Below, in pieces: positions 14,945 through 51,535 of a DNA stretch of 64,000 nt. Each line of letters begins with the position of its first letter. Position 1 is the first letter of the stretch. A program made the position numbers and the translations under genes. The stretch is from the NCBI GenBank assembly GCA_016207825.1, contig JACQZI010000012.1:17532-81531 (forward strand), read 5' to 3'. Source of the stretch: Planctomycetota bacterium (GTDB lineage Bacteria; Planctomycetota; MHYJ01; JACQXL01; JACQZI01). The notes under the pieces were generated by a model. The model searched no databases. It was not told the DNA's origin and saw only the letters and a list, made by a program, of their open reading frames with translations.

Positions 14945-15208
14945 AACACAACCCCATACCCCCTACAACGGCTATAGTCTATACCGGCAATATACTTACC
15001 CCCAGCTTATAACAGTTACCACTATTACCTGCAACAGTTCCCAGCTATCCCTGCAACAGTTATTACCCCTGCCCATAACAGTTATACTCTATACTGGCAA
15101 TATACTTACTTCCAGCCTATAACAGTTACCGCCATCCCCTGCAACAGTTACCCTGCTCCTCTACGACGGTTATACTCTCCCTCGGCAATATACGCTCTCC
15201 CCTGGTCA
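14945..15208. repeat. Minisatellite, 12 units of exactly 22 bp
   Basis: Units start at 14945 and every 22 bases to 15187 without any indel. Most begin AACAGTTA and end TGC or CAT; a variant begins AATATACTTAC. Units starting at 14967, 14989, 15011 and 15033 match those at 15077, 15099, 15121 and 15143, so a 110-bp block was duplicated as well. It is noncoding and lies between the cupin gene and a membrane-protein promoter. Confidence 0.95.
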
Positions 15209-16095: not shown

Positions 16096-17184
16096 TTATT
16101 TACTGAATATCGGCAGGTATTCCGAAGGCAGTTGCAGGATAAGCGTTGCCATGGATGTTGCGTAGGTTTCGCCGACATCGTCTTCCCAGTGGCCGTCGTC
16201 TTTCTGCCCGCCCAGGACTCCGGGTAGCATGATATCCGTATACTGTTTCCACTGTTTTTCGCCCGCCTGGTAGAGCGCCTGGGAAAGGTAATAATGGGTG
16301 TAATAAAAATGATACGGATAATGGTTGTTTTCCGGGACGGGGATGGGATATTGCTGGTTGGTCAGAATCCAGTTTAGCCCCTGTATGACTTTGGCAGAGG
16401 AGTAATCTCCCGCGCTCATAAGGGCGACGACGCCCGCCGCGGTCAGCGCCTGGGATGTCCGCGCATCGGCATCGAGCTGGTATTTGAAAGAGCCTTTTAA
16501 AGGCCCTTCGGCGGTATTGGCGGAGTCATGGACGTATTTCATGGCTTTTTCAATCACGTTCTTGGGGACGGCAATGCCGACATTCCTTGCCGCGCGCAGT
16601 GCCTGAAGCGTCGTGACCGTCACCGAGATATCCGCGTCAATGGGCGAGGGCTGGTAGCGCCAGCCGCCGTCCTTGTTCTGGCACTGGACAATCAGGTTGA
16701 CGGCGTTTTTGAGCTTGGTCTTGACGTCATCCCGTGGGCTCATCCCGTAAATTTCTGCCAGGAACATGGTGGCAAAGGCGTGCTCATACATCCTTGTGCC
16801 GTATCTGGTGATGTAGCCGTCGCTTTCTCGGCAGGAATCGAGTATGAATTCCAAAGTTCTTTTGACATTATCCCCGTATTTGCCGCGCCCGGGAGTGCTC
16901 CCCTGCGCCAGGAAGGACATTCCGCCCAGTGCGGTGACCGCGATATTATCGTTTGTCTCTTTGCCGATGTAGCCTTCGTTGAGTTTGCATCCTATTCTGC
17001 AGGTCCAGGAGCCGTTTTCGTTCTGGTGCTCAGCAAGCCATTTTAACCCCTTTTCCGCGGCGGTTTTTATCAGTTTCTTTTGCGCCTCTTCCGGGGTAGG
17101 CTTGGTGATTTCATCGGATATCAGCGTGCCGATAAGCACCAATAACCAAATCCCAAATCCCAAATAAACATCAAGATTTTTCAT
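16096..17184 (-). CDS. Prenyltransferase/squalene-cyclase-repeat protein, exported
   Basis: 362 residues. A membrane or signal segment near the start (YLGFGIWLLVLIGTLIS) is followed by alpha/alpha-toroid repeats of the squalene cyclase/prenyltransferase superfamily: GLKWLAEHQNENGSWTCRI, IVQCQNKDGGWRY, GLNWILTNQQYP, QKDDGHWEDD. The QxxxGxW repeat is clear. No cyclase DxDD catalytic motif is visible, so it is probably not a terpene cyclase. Planctomycetes have many such exported proteins of unknown role. It starts nine bases after the stop of the large PQQ gene, so the two are likely one operon. Its first codons include a CAAATCCC-type tandem word. Confidence 0.8.
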   Translation of the reverse strand: MKNLDVYLGFGIWLLVLIGTLISDEITKPTPEEAQKKLIKTAAEKGLKWLAEHQNENGSWTCRIGCKLNEGYIGKETNDNIAVTALGGMSFLAQGSTPGRGKYGDNVKRTLEFILDSCRESDGYITRYGTRMYEHAFATMFLAEIYGMSPRDDVKTKLKNAVNLIVQCQNKDGGWRYQPSPIDADISVTVTTLQALRAARNVGIAVPKNVIEKAMKYVHDSANTAEGPLKGSFKYQLDADARTSQALTAAGVVALMSAGDYSSAKVIQGLNWILTNQQYPIPVPENNHYPYHFYYTHYYLSQALYQAGEKQWKQYTDIMLPGVLGGQKDDGHWEDDVGETYATSMATLILQLPSEYLPIFSK

Positions 17185-23618: not shown

Positions 23619-26339
23619 TTACCGGAGGTCGTCCAGGCTCTTTTTAAGCTTGCCAAATTGCTCGGCCAGCGCGGCATTTTTTGCTTCTTCCTTGGCAAGG
23701 ATTTCCGGAGGTGCGTTTTTCCTGAATTCGCGGTTGGATAGCTGTTGTTTGGAGCGGGTAAGCTGCTCCTCGGCTTTAGCCAGCTTATTTTGGAGCCGCT
23801 TCTTTTCCGCGTCTAAATTGATGATTCCTTCCAGGGGAACAAAAACCTCCACCTTGTATTTGCCTTCGCTTATAACTTCGGTCGCCGAGTGGTCGGGCTT
23901 TTTCGCCTTTACCTTGATATCCGTAGACGAGATATTGGCGATGTGTTCAATCATCTTGCGGTGCGTTTCGATAATGCCAGTCGTTCCCTTATCTGCCGTG
24001 GAAACGATGATGGAGAGCGCCTGCTTTTTATCGATATCCATTTTATTCCGGATATCGCGCACGGCGCGGATTATTTCCATGACCAGTTTCATCTCATCTT
24101 CGGCTTCTTTATAAATCAGTTTGGAATCGCTTTCCGGCCAGGGGGCAATCATCACGGATTCCGACCAGCCGCCTTTTTCCCGGAAATTCTGCCAGAGCTC
24201 CTCGGTGATATGCGGGATAAGCGGATGCAATAGCCGTAAGATAGTATTAAACAAATGGAGCAGATTGGATTTTAATGCCTTATCTCCGCCCGGCTCTTTG
24301 CTGTAAAGCCGCGGTTTTATCATTTCCAGGTACCAATCACAGACATCGCCCCAGAAGAAGTGGTAAACCGAATGCGCCGCCTGGCTGAATTCATAAGACT
24401 CCAGCGCTTTAGTATAATCGGCAATGGTCGAATTAAGCCGGCTTAAAATCCATTTGTCCTCGAAAGATAATGAGCAATTAGCAGGTAACAGTGAACATTG
24501 TTCATTGCTCATTGTCACTTCTTCACTAGTAGGCAGATTAGTCAGTATCAGTCTTGAGGCGTTCCAGAGCTTATTGCAGAAATTGCGGCCGGAGACATAA
24601 ACCTCTTCGGAAAGGTTGATATCGCCGCCCAGCGGGATATTGGTCATGATGCCGAACCTTAAGGCGTCGGCGCTGTATTTGGTCATTAAATCTATCGGGT
24701 CGGGAGAGTTTCCGAGCGACTTGGAAAGTTTCCTGCCCTTGTCGTCCCGTGCGATTCCGTGGATATAAACATGCCTGAACGGGACATCTCCTCCGAATTC
24801 AATGCCCGCCATTATCATGCGCGAAACCCAGAAGAAAAGGATGTCTTTTCCGGAGTTAAGCCAGGCGGTCGGGTAGAAATATTTCAGTTCCGCTGTTTCC
24901 TTGGGCCAGCCGAATACCGCGAAAGGCCACAGCCACGAGGAAAACCAGGTGTCCAAAACATCCGGGTCTTGTGTGAGTTCCGTATTCCCGCACTTCGGGC
25001 ATTTGGCGGGCTTATCTTTGCTTGCAATCGGAGGACATTGTTCCGATGTTTTATCCCGATGGTCATCGGGGCGTCGCTTCGCTCCGCAGTACCATATCGG
25101 GATTCTGTGTCCCCACCAGAGCTGTCTGGAGATGCACCAGTCGCGGATGTTGGTCATCCATTCCATGTAAACCTTATCCCATCTTTCCGGGAAGAATTTT
25201 ACCCGGCCGTCTTTCACCGCCTGGATGGCCGGTTCGGCCAGCGGCTTCATCCTGACAAACCACTGGAGCGAGAGATATGGTTCTATCATAGTCTCGCAGC
25301 GGTAACAGTGCCCGACTGCGTGCATGTGCTTGTCTTTTTTATCGTATAAGCCCTGCGCTTCCAAATCCGCAATGACTTTCTTCCGCGCCTCGAATCGGTC
25401 CAGCCCTTTATAAGCCCCGGCGTTCTCGTTCATCTTGCCGTCCGGCCCGATGACCTTTATGAAAGCGAGATTATGCCGCTGTCCCATGGCGAAGTCGTTC
25501 GGGTCGTGTGCAGGCGTCACTTTCACCGCGCCCGAGCCGAATTCCGGATTGGTGAAGGAATCCGCGATTATCGGGATTTCCCGGTTTACCAGGGGGAGTA
25601 TCACCGTTTTCCCGATTAAATCTTTATAGCGCTTGTCATCCGGATGGACGGCAACCGCGGTATCGCCCAGCATCGTTTCCGGGCGGGTGGTTGCGACCAT
25701 TATTTGAGTAACATCCGCGTTCTTATCTTTCATCGGATACTTTATCCAGTAAAGCCCGCCTTCGATATCCCGGTGTTCCACTTCTTCATCGGAAAGCGCG
25801 GTCTGGCAGCGCGGGCACCAGTTGATAATGTAATCCCCCTGGTAAATCAATCCTTTTTTATAAAGCCGGATGAATACTTCCATCACCGCCTTGGAATAAT
25901 CCTCATCCATGGTAAAGCGCAAGCGCGACCAGTCGCAGGAACAGCCGAGTCGCTTCAATTGCTGGATAATGGTATTGCCGTATTGTTCCTTCCATTTCCA
26001 GACCATTTCGACGAACTTCTCGCGCCCGATTTTATGGCGGCTGAGGTTTTCCTTGCGCAGGCTTTTCTCGACCGCGTTCTGGGTGGCGATGCCGGCGTGG
26101 TCTGTTCCCGGAATCCAGACGGTGTTATAACCCTGCATACGGCGGAAGCGCGTCATGATATCCTGCGGTGTTTCGTCCATCACGTGGCCCATATGGAGTA
26201 TGCCGGTGACGTTGGGCGGGGGAATCACCACGGCGAAGGGCTTGTGCTGGGCATCGACCTTGCCGTGAAAATAGCCCTTTTCTTCCCAGAACTTATAGAT
26301 GCGTTCTTCAACCGTTTGAGGATTATATACGGATTCCAT
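23619..26339 (-). CDS. valS: Valyl-tRNA synthetase
   Basis: 906 residues, the usual length. HIGH-type motif is NVTGILHMGH, the KMSKS-type motif is GRKLSKSLGN, the editing domain contains TTRPETMLGDTAVAVHPDD, and the C-terminal coiled coil (AEKKRLQNKLAKAEEQLTRSKQQL) is the ValRS tRNA-binding arm. It charges tRNA-Val. Two stretches look inserted: residues about 417-437 (AKRRPDDHRDKTSEQ) and about 609-624 (SNEQCSLLPANCSL). Both are encoded by palindromic repeats, described separately. The ORF6N gene lies eight bases upstream. No SD is seen. Confidence 0.96.
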   Translation of the reverse strand: MESVYNPQTVEERIYKFWEEKGYFHGKVDAQHKPFAVVIPPPNVTGILHMGHVMDETPQDIMTRFRRMQGYNTVWIPGTDHAGIATQNAVEKSLRKENLSRHKIGREKFVEMVWKWKEQYGNTIIQQLKRLGCSCDWSRLRFTMDEDYSKAVMEVFIRLYKKGLIYQGDYIINWCPRCQTALSDEEVEHRDIEGGLYWIKYPMKDKNADVTQIMVATTRPETMLGDTAVAVHPDDKRYKDLIGKTVILPLVNREIPIIADSFTNPEFGSGAVKVTPAHDPNDFAMGQRHNLAFIKVIGPDGKMNENAGAYKGLDRFEARKKVIADLEAQGLYDKKDKHMHAVGHCYRCETMIEPYLSLQWFVRMKPLAEPAIQAVKDGRVKFFPERWDKVYMEWMTNIRDWCISRQLWWGHRIPIWYCGAKRRPDDHRDKTSEQCPPIASKDKPAKCPKCGNTELTQDPDVLDTWFSSWLWPFAVFGWPKETAELKYFYPTAWLNSGKDILFFWVSRMIMAGIEFGGDVPFRHVYIHGIARDDKGRKLSKSLGNSPDPIDLMTKYSADALRFGIMTNIPLGGDINLSEEVYVSGRNFCNKLWNASRLILTNLPTSEEVTMSNEQCSLLPANCSLSFEDKWILSRLNSTIADYTKALESYEFSQAAHSVYHFFWGDVCDWYLEMIKPRLYSKEPGGDKALKSNLLHLFNTILRLLHPLIPHITEELWQNFREKGGWSESVMIAPWPESDSKLIYKEAEDEMKLVMEIIRAVRDIRNKMDIDKKQALSIIVSTADKGTTGIIETHRKMIEHIANISSTDIKVKAKKPDHSATEVISEGKYKVEVFVPLEGIINLDAEKKRLQNKLAKAEEQLTRSKQQLSNREFRKNAPPEILAKEEAKNAALAEQFGKLKKSLDDLR
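24469..24513. repeat. Palindromic repeat inserted in frame in valS
   Basis: AATGAGCAAT (24469-24478) and ATTGCTCATT (24504-24513) are perfect inverse arms; inside them GAACATTGTTC (24493-24503) is a second palindrome. It encodes about 15 residues between the catalytic core and the anticodon-binding domain. Confidence 0.85.
25030..25088. repeat. Second palindromic repeat in valS
   Basis: CCCGAT-GGTC-ATCGGG (25055-25070) is followed by GCGTCGCTTCGCTC, a word found again near 48340-48353 (ACGTCACTTCGCTC). It is in frame and lies in the zinc/connective region after WYCG. Confidence 0.7.
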
Positions 26340-26347
26340 ATTTATTA

Positions 26348-26872
26348 TTAAATCTTTTTACCGGGATGGAAGCCGATTTTCGGCTTAGGTTTCTCTTCTT
26401 CGGACATCAGCTGTCTAATGGCATCAAATACCGCCTTAAATTGGATATCATATTTCTTTTCCAGTTCTTCCAGCTTTTTGGCTAATTCTTTATGGGATGA
26501 AAGTATCCGGCGCAGCTTGACAAATGCTCTCATTATAGTAATATTAACCTGAATGGCGCGTTTGCTGTTTAAGATGCCGGAAAGCATTGCTACCCCCTGC
26601 TCTGTAAAAGCGTAAGGAAGGTATTTTGAATGAGAGCCTCTCTTTAAGGTGCCAAATTGGCACCTTAAAATTTGACGATATTCTTCCCTTGTTATTGTAA
26701 ACATGAAATCAATTGGGAATCTTTCTATGTTTCTTTTAACCTGCCTTTTCAGTTGTCTTGTTTCCACTCCGTAAAGGCGTGCCAAGTCGTCATCTAATAT
26801 AACTTTATGCCCACGTATAAATAAGATGGCATCTTCAATCCGCTCTACAGGAATTAGAGATGTTTCTTTCAT
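26348..26872 (-). CDS. ORF6N-domain DNA-binding protein
   Basis: 174 residues. The N-terminal ORF6N domain is clear: ILFIRGHKVILDDDLARLYGVETRQLKRQVKRN, FPIDFMFTITREEY, YAFTEQGVAMLSGILNSKRAIQVNI. A coiled coil (HKELAKKLEELEKKYDIQF) and basic tail follow. ORF6N/KilA-N proteins are common in phages and mobile elements and act as DNA-binding regulators or antirepressors. Here it sits alone and only eight bases upstream of valS in the same direction, with no phage genes near. It could be a captured gene that now shares the valS transcript. Confidence 0.9.
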   Translation of the reverse strand: MKETSLIPVERIEDAILFIRGHKVILDDDLARLYGVETRQLKRQVKRNIERFPIDFMFTITREEYRQILRCQFGTLKRGSHSKYLPYAFTEQGVAMLSGILNSKRAIQVNITIMRAFVKLRRILSSHKELAKKLEELEKKYDIQFKAVFDAIRQLMSEEEKPKPKIGFHPGKKI

Positions 26873-29258: not shown

Positions 29259-29544
29259 GGTATTAAAAATCTACCTTAGCTGTGCCAAAAAACTGCTTTA
29301 TATGTGCCAAAAATCCTCCTCTACTGTGCGCAAAATATTCCTATGCTGTGCGAAAAATCTATCTTAGCTGTGCCAAAAATCTTCCCGCGCTGTGCTTAAA
29401 ATCATCCTACACTGTGCTTAAAATACTCCTATACTGTGCCAAAAATCTTCCTCAGCTGTGCCAAAAGTATTCCTATGCTGTGCTTAAAATCTTCCTTATA
29501 GGTGCTAAAAATCTACCTCTGATGTGCGAAAAAGATAGGCGTGA
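29259..29544. repeat. Minisatellite, 13 units of exactly 22 bp
   Basis: Units start at 29259 and every 22 bases to 29523. Most begin TGTGC, continue with an A-run and end ATCTTCCTATGC-like. No insertions or deletions in 286 bases. An ORF at 29282-29551 only reads through the repeat and is not a gene. The array is between convergent genes (fusA and the 29.6-kb gene). Nothing else is visible in 29166-29585. Confidence 0.95.
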
Positions 29545-33654: not shown

Positions 33655-33703
33655 CTAAGAGGCTAAGAGTTAATATTAGTCTCATAGGCTTTTAGCCTCT
33701 TAG
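33655..33703. repeat. CTAAGAGGCTA inverted repeat at the flavodoxin gene end
   Basis: CTAAGAGGCTA (33655-33665) and TAGCCTCTTAG (33693-33703) are perfect inverse arms. The stop codon of the flavodoxin-like gene lies inside the right arm. It may also terminate transcription. Confidence 0.8.
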
Positions 33704-34272
33704 GCTTCCTTTCCCATTTTATACGCATCTTTCAGCGCGGTCGGGTGTTTGGTTATATTATCTTTATATTTAGCCAAGCCGATTAGGAGTTGTCCGCTAT
33801 ACTTGGCATCAAGCGCGTCAAAGAAATACTTGACTGTCAGCTTGGCGCCGTCAAATACCTTTTTCCCTTTCGTCGCCGCAGTGGATATAAAGTATCCCTT
33901 CCGTTTGGAGCTTGGAGCTTGGAGCTTGGAGCTTCGGGTTTCAATGATGTATTTCCGCGCCCAAAACGCCTGGCATCTATCCACCAATGCCTTTGCCTGG
34001 GCGGTTAATCCGTAAAAGAATATGGGCGAGGCAAGCGCAATCACATCTGCTTTTTCTATATCTTTATAAAGTCCTGTCATTTCGTCTTTAATACTGCAAT
34101 TGCCGGTTTTCATGCAGGCGTAGTATTCCATGCAGGGAGTGATTTTCATCTTGCCGAGGAACACTTTCTGTATTTGGGCGCCTTTGGCTTTAGCGCCTTT
34201 AAGGAATTCATCCAGCAATTGCTGTGTGTTCCCGTTCTTCCTTGGGCTTCCGTAAATTCCCAATATTTTCAT
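33700..34272 (-). CDS. Flavodoxin-like NAD(P)H-dependent FMN reductase
   Basis: 190 residues from MKILGIYGSPRKNGN at 34272; the longer frame runs back through a repeat. FMN-binding GSPRKNGNT, a cysteine-containing loop (MEYYACMKTGNC) and ALASPIFFYGLTAQAKALVDRCQ place it with iron-sulfur flavoproteins/NADPH-dependent FMN reductases. Residues about 113-122 (KLQAPSSK) are encoded by four tandem GGAGCTT heptamers inserted after WARKYI and before KGYFISTAATKG, where relatives have no such loop. The stop lies in a palindrome. Confidence 0.85.
   Translation of the reverse strand: MKILGIYGSPRKNGNTQQLLDEFLKGAKAKGAQIQKVFLGKMKITPCMEYYACMKTGNCSIKDEMTGLYKDIEKADVIALASPIFFYGLTAQAKALVDRCQAFWARKYIIETRSSKLQAPSSKRKGYFISTAATKGKKVFDGAKLTVKYFFDALDAKYSGQLLIGLAKYKDNITKHPTALKDAYKMGKEA
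33907..33934. repeat. Four tandem GGAGCTT heptamers inside the flavodoxin gene
   Basis: Perfect copies at 33907, 33914, 33921 and 33928. Each holds the AGCT palindrome. Confidence 0.95.
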
Positions 34273-34309
34273 TATAATCTTGCCACTAAGGCATCCCGTT
34301 CCTTTCGTC

Positions 34310-34357
34310 AGGGACTCCCTATAATTGGGTATCCCCGAAGTAAAGCTGAGCGGGGTC
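34310..34357. repeat. Dispersed 48-bp repeat upstream of the flavodoxin gene
   Basis: Aligns without gaps to the inverse of 18188-18235 with 8 mismatches. Contains CCCCGAAGTAAAGCTGAGCGGGG. Confidence 0.75.
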
Positions 34358-34369
34358 AAGACACTAAGA

Positions 34370-35155: not shown

Positions 35156-35224
35156 ATGTCCTCCTTTTAAAAGCACCAAATTCCAAATCACAAATTCCAA
35201 TTTGGATATTGGAGTTTAGCATCT

Positions 35225-48339: not shown

Positions 48340-48437
48340 ACGTCACTTCGCTCTCCCGATTAGGTTCCCGATAGGATAATCGGGACTTCCCCGCCTTGGC
48401 GGGGTCGCGGGACGGAATTTATCCCGTATTAGCGGGA
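48340..48437. repeat. Cluster of small palindromes between nrdR and secA
   Basis: TCCCGAT/ATCGGGA (48366-48372, 48379-48385), CCCCGCC/GGCGGGG (48389-48404) and TCCCG/CGGGA (48422-48437). The word ACGTCACTTCGCTC near 48340 recurs in valS. The last palindrome supplies the secA stop. Confidence 0.8.
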
Positions 48438-51205: not shown

Positions 51206-51535
51206 TATAGCGTATGATATTAGGGGCTATAGCATATAATATTAGGGGGTATAGGATATGATATTAGGGACTATAGGATATGATATTGGGGGCTATAGGA
51301 TATGCTATTAGGGACTATAGGGTATGCTATTAGGGATTATAGGATATGATATTGGGGACTATAGGGTATGCTGTTAAGGACTATAGGATATGATATTGGG
51401 GACTATAGGGTATGTTATTAGGGACTATAAGGTATGCTATTAGGGTGTATAGGGTATGCCATTAAGGACTATAGTGTATGCTATTAGGGACTATATGATA
51501 TGGTATTAGGATGGCAGGGATATACTATTAGGGCA
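51206..51535. repeat. Minisatellite, 15 units of exactly 22 bp
   Basis: Units start at 51206 and every 22 bases to 51514 (the last ones decayed). Consensus begins TATAGGATATG and ends CTATTAGGGAC. No indels. It lies about 130 bases beyond the secA promoter in an 868-base gene-free gap. Confidence 0.95.

Follow-up and report, generated by a model that had tools for sequence, protein, structure and literature searches.

Repeat DNA of two kinds lies in frame in two disordered loops of a planctomycete valyl-tRNA synthetase

How does an essential enzyme come to carry repeat-like DNA within its coding sequence, and do the two such segments in the valine–tRNA ligase (ValRS) gene of an uncultivated member of the Planctomycetota have one origin or two? 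The gene, valS (23619-26339, minus strand), is a 906-aa open reading frame (ORF) in the window, the 64,000-nucleotide stretch of DNA analysed here. The ORF matches NCBIfam PRK05729 at 1208 bits against a cut-off of 704, scores far above the cut-off of TIGR00422 as well, and aligns along its whole length with the Thermus thermophilus enzyme (1gax). An earlier note had proposed that two palindromes are set in frame in this gene, that the residues they encode look unlike ValRS and that both probably sit in surface loops. Both are indeed present, in frame, in the ORF. Both coincide with gaps relative to 1gax, and the distant ValRS proteins examined for conservation of these residues are without them. 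Counted as residues between fixed conserved anchors, the loop at site 1 is 48 aa long in the window valS, where 77 of 80 other bacteria have 27-39 aa, and that at site 2 is 31 aa long, where all of the 66 others for which it was measured have 19-26 aa. Modelled by AlphaFold with 29 homologues (mean pLDDT 87.5), both sites are coil; residues 426-432 form the sole run of three or more residues with pLDDT below 50, and pLDDT averages 55-60 over residues 601-620. The analysis thus confirms two in-frame, non-native, repeat-derived segments in disordered valS loops, and shows them to be two different kinds of thing. Throughout, genes were called as stop-to-stop ORFs and compared with profile libraries, all genomes compared are draft assemblies, genome-wide counts come from pattern searches, and heptamer densities are taken from a 400-kb sample.

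Site 1 (25054-25086, minus strand) reads CGGAGCGAAGCGACGC-CCCGAT-GACC-ATCGGG-A and codes for GAKRRPDDHRD between Cys418 and Cys435; the palindrome CCCGAT-GGTC-ATCGGG at 25055-25070 lies in frame and codes for residues at about 419-434. In many other ValRS proteins the matching cysteines stand as CxxC, a knuckle that the palindrome splits; the second cysteine is kept as C-PPI in the window valS and in five further genomes (G004-G008). The segment is a copy of a dispersed composite palindrome of about 33 nt with the consensus CGGAGCGWAGCGAMGTCCCGAYNNNNRTCGGG. Hairpins of the form CCCGAT-N(2-10)-ATCGGG occur 65 times in the 2.9-Mb genome, against none for the reversed control and an estimated 1.5 or so at equal base frequencies, and the composite is found at 19 places with no more than one mismatch, compared with 3 for its control. 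CCCGAY-type hairpins are mainly intergenic, and within the window two more CCCG hairpins (CCCGATAGGATAATCGGG and CCCGCCTTGGCGGG, 48367-48403) fall outside any long ORF.

A minority of these hairpins lie in frame within recognised genes, where, whenever a homologue could be aligned, they fall at gaps. Cas4g/Cas1g contains two such stretches, at gaps of 7mi4; TsaB has an in-frame palindrome with a long extra segment near its N-terminus; and NtrC-like activators carry palindromes in both orientations at one common loop before PWPGN(I/V)REL. The palindrome of a class IV aminotransferase stands at a 7-aa gap in a homologue, but this is a weaker case, the congener reading YPASGG where this genome reads YPDQSRDG, a difference of only two residues. 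The palindrome is open in several frames and in both orientations, and the peptides encoded include GAKRRPDDHR, ERSEVPTNVGAD and SGLRSASP. The palindromes that lie in RsmH, ThiG and a DUF401-like protein are probably native and were put aside, and a copy in MoaA was dropped as a clean insertion, the region being shorter than in its homologue. A GlcF-like iron-sulfur oxidoreductase (L243:1116-2429, minus strand) displays about five repeat-derived stretches, heptamers as well as palindromes, in one gene.

A search of the genome for an intact dedicated transposase for the palindromes found none. The sole Y1_Tnp match is partial (94 codons, model positions 5-72; G000:C32:46583-46789), no CCCGAY hairpins surround it, and it is possibly the remnant of a REP-type transposase. 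At L246:1510-1570 the linker of an ORF that joins oxidoreductase-like and radical-SAM domains consists of a GTCATTGCGAG...GAAGCAATCTC module containing two CCCGAT hairpins; the module resembles CGTC-type REPs, and a search of the open-licence literature for GTCATTGCGAG brought up nothing relevant.

Site 2 (24466-24520, minus strand) is of a different nature. It codes for residues at about 607-626 (TMSNEQCSLLPANCSLS), in the linker that joins two helices (H578-600 and H626-647), and bears inverted-repeat arms, AATGAGCAAT at 24469-24478 and ATTGCTCATT at 24505-24514, which code for residues at about 609-626. Written in sevens, the DNA reads AATGAGC AATTAGC AGGTAAC AGTGAAC ATTGTTC ATTGCTC ATTGTCA, and it folds back (energy z = -5.0) because the later heptamer units complement the first ones. 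Site 2 is therefore primarily a degenerate heptamer array, palindromic only through its reversed second half. Fold-back as a general trait of heptamer arrays was rejected, since other arrays range from z = -2.4 to +1.6 and only this one stands out. The lag-7 score of site 2 is 21 of 28, against a background maximum of 17 among 90 valS genes, a ranking that leaves aside one gene with masked bases. Scores above 17 were 25, 23, 21, 20 and 20; the top four, which lie in the two loops discussed here, belong to G005, G007, the window genome and G003, and the fifth to a valS of the Oscillospiraceae. In the latter (L012, Mx356_bin4) an in-frame heptamer array (GACAGTGAACAGCGAACAACTCACAACAGACA) lies near residue 805; as this bacterium is from another, unrelated phylum, the heptamer process reaches beyond the present order.

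The earlier note regarded both sites as one kind of element, an active spreading repeat, and this holds in part. The idea of a spreading repeat fits site 1, which belongs to a family with 65 occurrences where the control has none. It does not fit site 2: a 69-nt query matched only site 2 itself in the genome, and the heptamer unit varies by locus and species, so the segment does not represent a single spreading sequence copied from place to place. The word active gains indirect support for the palindromes, from a LeuS difference described below, and does not extend to the heptamers.

Heptamer arrays are a general feature of this genome. The 400-kb sample contained 15, whereas triplet shuffles gave 0 at the same threshold; other periods were rarer, with 0-2 places at lags 5, 6, 10 and 11 and 9 at lag 8. 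Density is 37 per Mb here and 39 per Mb in the order-mate G003 (the latter from only 3 arrays in 77 kb, the valS locus among them); two phylum-mates had no arrays over 140 kb, and loci from other bacteria had 2 over 446 kb. Most sampled arrays are overlapped by long ORFs, including those for LeuS (residues 240-252), BioD and BioB, and at other loci of this genome in-frame heptamers occur also in RsmE, Asd and an NtrC-like protein, in the last of which the array occupies just the loop where its paralogues have palindromes. Within the window, (TTGGAGC)4.3 at 33905-33934 (minus strand; 100% matches in TRF, lag-7 score 25) codes in frame for approximately SSKLQAPSSK, inside an ORF (33700-34359) that, named by eye, starts like a flavodoxin-like reductase. 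An array of (CCAAATC)3 at 17129-17174 lies at the N-terminal end of a minus-strand ORF, and CCAAATT..., followed by its inverse, at 35176-35213 is largely between ORFs or at their edge. In this genome CCCGAY hairpins show no significant preference for the neighbourhood of heptamer arrays, 2 lying no more than 100 nt away where 0.8 would be expected; hairpins nested in heptamer arrays are seen in the LeuS gene of G001 and the valS gene of G008.

Several other repeats were noted in passing. A 728-residue ORF (L122:11112-11468) has two heptamer arrays that code for hydrophobic, membrane-like stretches (WKLVIGYWLLLVL and LVMGVVSYQLSVV), which makes heptamers a possible source of transmembrane-like sequence as well. 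Degenerate 22-nt units form long tandem arrays of up to 14 copies (TATAGGATATGATATTAGGGAC) at 51206-51510, 29265-29533 and 14973-15173 of the window, and no period is stronger in the 400-kb genome sample than 22 nt, seen at 24 places. Adjoining valS, a short minus-strand ORF (26348-26872) that looks by eye like an ORF6N/KilA-N type DNA-binding protein contains a perfect 13-nt inverted repeat (TTTAAGGTGCCAA/TTGGCACCTTAAA) at 26643-26669.

Comparison across the order shows the same loops filled by different repeats. AATTCGC/AATCCGC units occupy both valS loops of G007 and site 1 of G005, GACGCAC/GACCCAC-like units occupy site 2 of G005 and G003, octamers occur in the valS loops of G006, and CGAAATC lies at site 1 of G008. 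Site 2 of G006 is filled by a CCCGAT-type palindrome (CCCCCGATGAACATCGGGGG), and that of G007 is heptameric at a normal loop length of 22. In G002, the deepest member of the order seen, site 1 is unfilled, and at site 2 a contig (L116, G002:C373) ends within the palindrome CCCTCTCCC...GGGAGAGGG / CCCTCTCCCTCTGGGAGAGGGG, a hint that assemblies are broken by repeats in loops of this kind. A similar pattern is seen in LeuS, in the loop before VFTTRPDT, where the unit is AAATTCC in the window genome, AAATCCC in G005 and AATTGCG in G007; the loop is heptameric or nearly so in G003 as well, and at most weakly so in G008. In these five genomes it measures 28 residues between anchors, a length equal to that in T. 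thermophilus LeuS. The LeuS of the sister species G001, 86% identical to that of the window genome, has a loop of 42 residues because a GC-rich palindromic sequence, absent from the window genome's LeuS, lies in frame inside the heptamer array; the G001 match contains one stop codon, at the very end of the aligned range. In BioB the window genome has heptamers, G001 a palindrome-rich segment as well as heptamers, and G004 AATCCGC units; Asd contains heptamers here and in G007 and, in G006, a palindrome of the CCCGAT type (GAAGCGAAGTCCCGACAAATGTCGGGA). To judge from these alignments, loops of essential enzymes are filled in frame by small repeats that differ from species to species, and repeat DNA appears to keep supplying new protein sequence at points where it is tolerated.

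It is probable, in our judgement, that both valS segments represent repeat DNA which two permissive ValRS loops have taken up in frame, through two processes that pass one filter. Site 1 would be an inserted copy of the genome's dispersed palindrome, a short REP-like mosaic, its in-frame landings yielding peptides by virtue of the several open frames in both orientations. That the palindromes arise by mobility is suggested indirectly by the LeuS difference between the window genome and G001. Site 2 would be a local degenerate heptamer array, most likely produced by repeated slippage or template-switch synthesis with 7-nt offsets, three units (21 nt) restoring the reading frame. Purifying selection would spare such repeats only at a flexible loop or a tolerant hairpin, and the same loops would therefore be reoccupied, by different units, across species; the peptides encoded are presumably neutral.

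Simple insertion is not, however, the whole story, since in LeuS and at site 2 of the G007 valS heptamers fill loops without lengthening them. It could be argued that the heptamer arrays reflect conversion of variable loops in place by local error-prone resynthesis, with the palindromes as separate insertions. Consistent with this proposal are the constant LeuS loop length in five species whose units differ, equal to that of T. thermophilus, and the normal length of the G007 loop. Other arrays, however, do lengthen their loops (site 2 of the window valS; BioD, by 6 aa), and an ancient array inherited from a common ancestor could likewise drift at constant length; we regard conversion in place as rather unlikely. 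Extended to the order, the proposal is that a local process writes heptamer arrays over coding loop DNA in place, often at unchanged length and with the unit renewed in each lineage. The clearest case is the 28-residue LeuS loop, with its different heptamer unit in each of several species, and to this wider claim, too, we give distinctly less than even credence. If it were true, the loops of core enzymes would be repeatedly re-invented from repeat DNA.

The remaining explanations are weaker still. Selection could hold the peptides for a function, such as new contacts or the site-1 knuckle, their repeat-like appearance being secondary; indeed several members of the order retain the two cysteines on either side of site 1, and the heptameric LeuS loop still alternates hydrophobic residues like the T. 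thermophilus hairpin. The sequences at the sites are not conserved between genera, however, and the palindromes differ in frame and orientation between proteins, which makes a functional origin improbable. A single active mobile palindromic element inserted at both sites would explain why both segments are inverted repeats and why site 1 belongs to a dispersed family. It is very improbable given that the sites share no sequence, that site 2 has a 7-nt periodicity and its own unit, that the site-2 query finds only itself, and that other heptamers stand at the same point in order-mates. Least credible of all is that assembly errors or codon bias mimic repeats: the assemblies are drafts, repeats and palindromes can break contigs (as in the G002 valS) and a few in-gene hairpins look native, yet hairpins (65 against 0) and heptamer arrays (15 against 0) are enriched and the same loops are hit, with frames open, in several independently assembled genomes. 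We retain two processes and one filter as the preferred reading.

The palindromes invite comparison with known systems. Rickettsia palindromic elements (RPEs; Ogata et al. 2000, 2002) are about 150 bp long and lie in frame in many genes (PMC10969869). As with RPEs, the repeats described here are palindromic, in frame and tolerated in unrelated genes (valS, Cas4g/Cas1g, TsaB, NtrC-like activators and the class IV aminotransferase). In contrast with RPEs, which measure 100-150 bp and have a conserved coded peptide per family, they are about 33 nt long and yield several peptides from several frames and both orientations; moreover, the RPE hosts are obligate intracellular Rickettsia, whereas this is an unrelated uncultivated order with heptamer arrays in the same loops. 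Intragenic REPs of the GTAG and CGTC superfamilies (20-40 nt) are mostly intergenic, with a minority in genes, including those for tRNA synthetases and DNA repair, where they probably occupy linkers or loops (PMC3733652). The present palindromes are likewise short and mainly intergenic, with some in genes that include a tRNA synthetase. They differ from GTAG REPs in having no conserved GTAG/GGAG head and in their CCCGAY stems with variable loops of 2-10 nt: GGAGNNCCCG...CGGG was found at 9 places against 3 for the control, mostly not as hairpins, and few of 28 sampled hairpins show an unpaired GTAG or GGAG tetranucleotide beside the stem. Nor is there a RAYT gene flanked by repeats, the genome holding a single partial Y1_Tnp match, and head motif and transposase together rule out REP/RAYT membership. 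CGTC REPs have a CGTC tag followed by an 8-9 bp stem starting with AT and a CCA tail (PMC3733652); here the composite ends MGTCCCGAY, the stem goes on CCGAY instead of leading with AT, and there is no CCA tail. Thus the palindromes work like RPEs without belonging to them, and differ from RPEs, GTAG REPs and CGTC REPs in at least one defining feature each.

Heptanucleotide repeats, too, have precedents. TAACTGA repeats occur in Beggiatoaceae, where they are mostly upstream of genes, and in cyanobacteria (PMC4679880), and the GGACCGG elements of Geobacter metallireducens lie also within genes (PMC2700814); a proposal cited in PMC4679880 is that 7 nt is the length contacting the polymerase. The arrays reported here share the tandem 7-nt unit, the excess over chance and the scatter through the genome. 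Whereas one exact unit dominates in the known systems, nearly every array here has its own degenerate unit, and most of those sampled overlap long ORFs. Judged against the open-licence literature, what looks new is the scale of the phenomenon outside the documented groups and the occupation of the same loops by both repeat types in turn.

The best records of in-frame repeat insertion come from Rickettsia and from scattered cases of intragenic REPs; in the present case essential enzymes across a whole uncultivated order are involved, and the two repeat types that share their loops are unrelated. Peptides encoded by such repeats can mislead annotation and alignments. This study extends the picture by providing, species by loop, a replicated set of natural insertions that bears on the origin of small repeats, on the selection that filters them and on the capacity of particular loops in ValRS, LeuS, Asd or BioB to take up foreign sequence.
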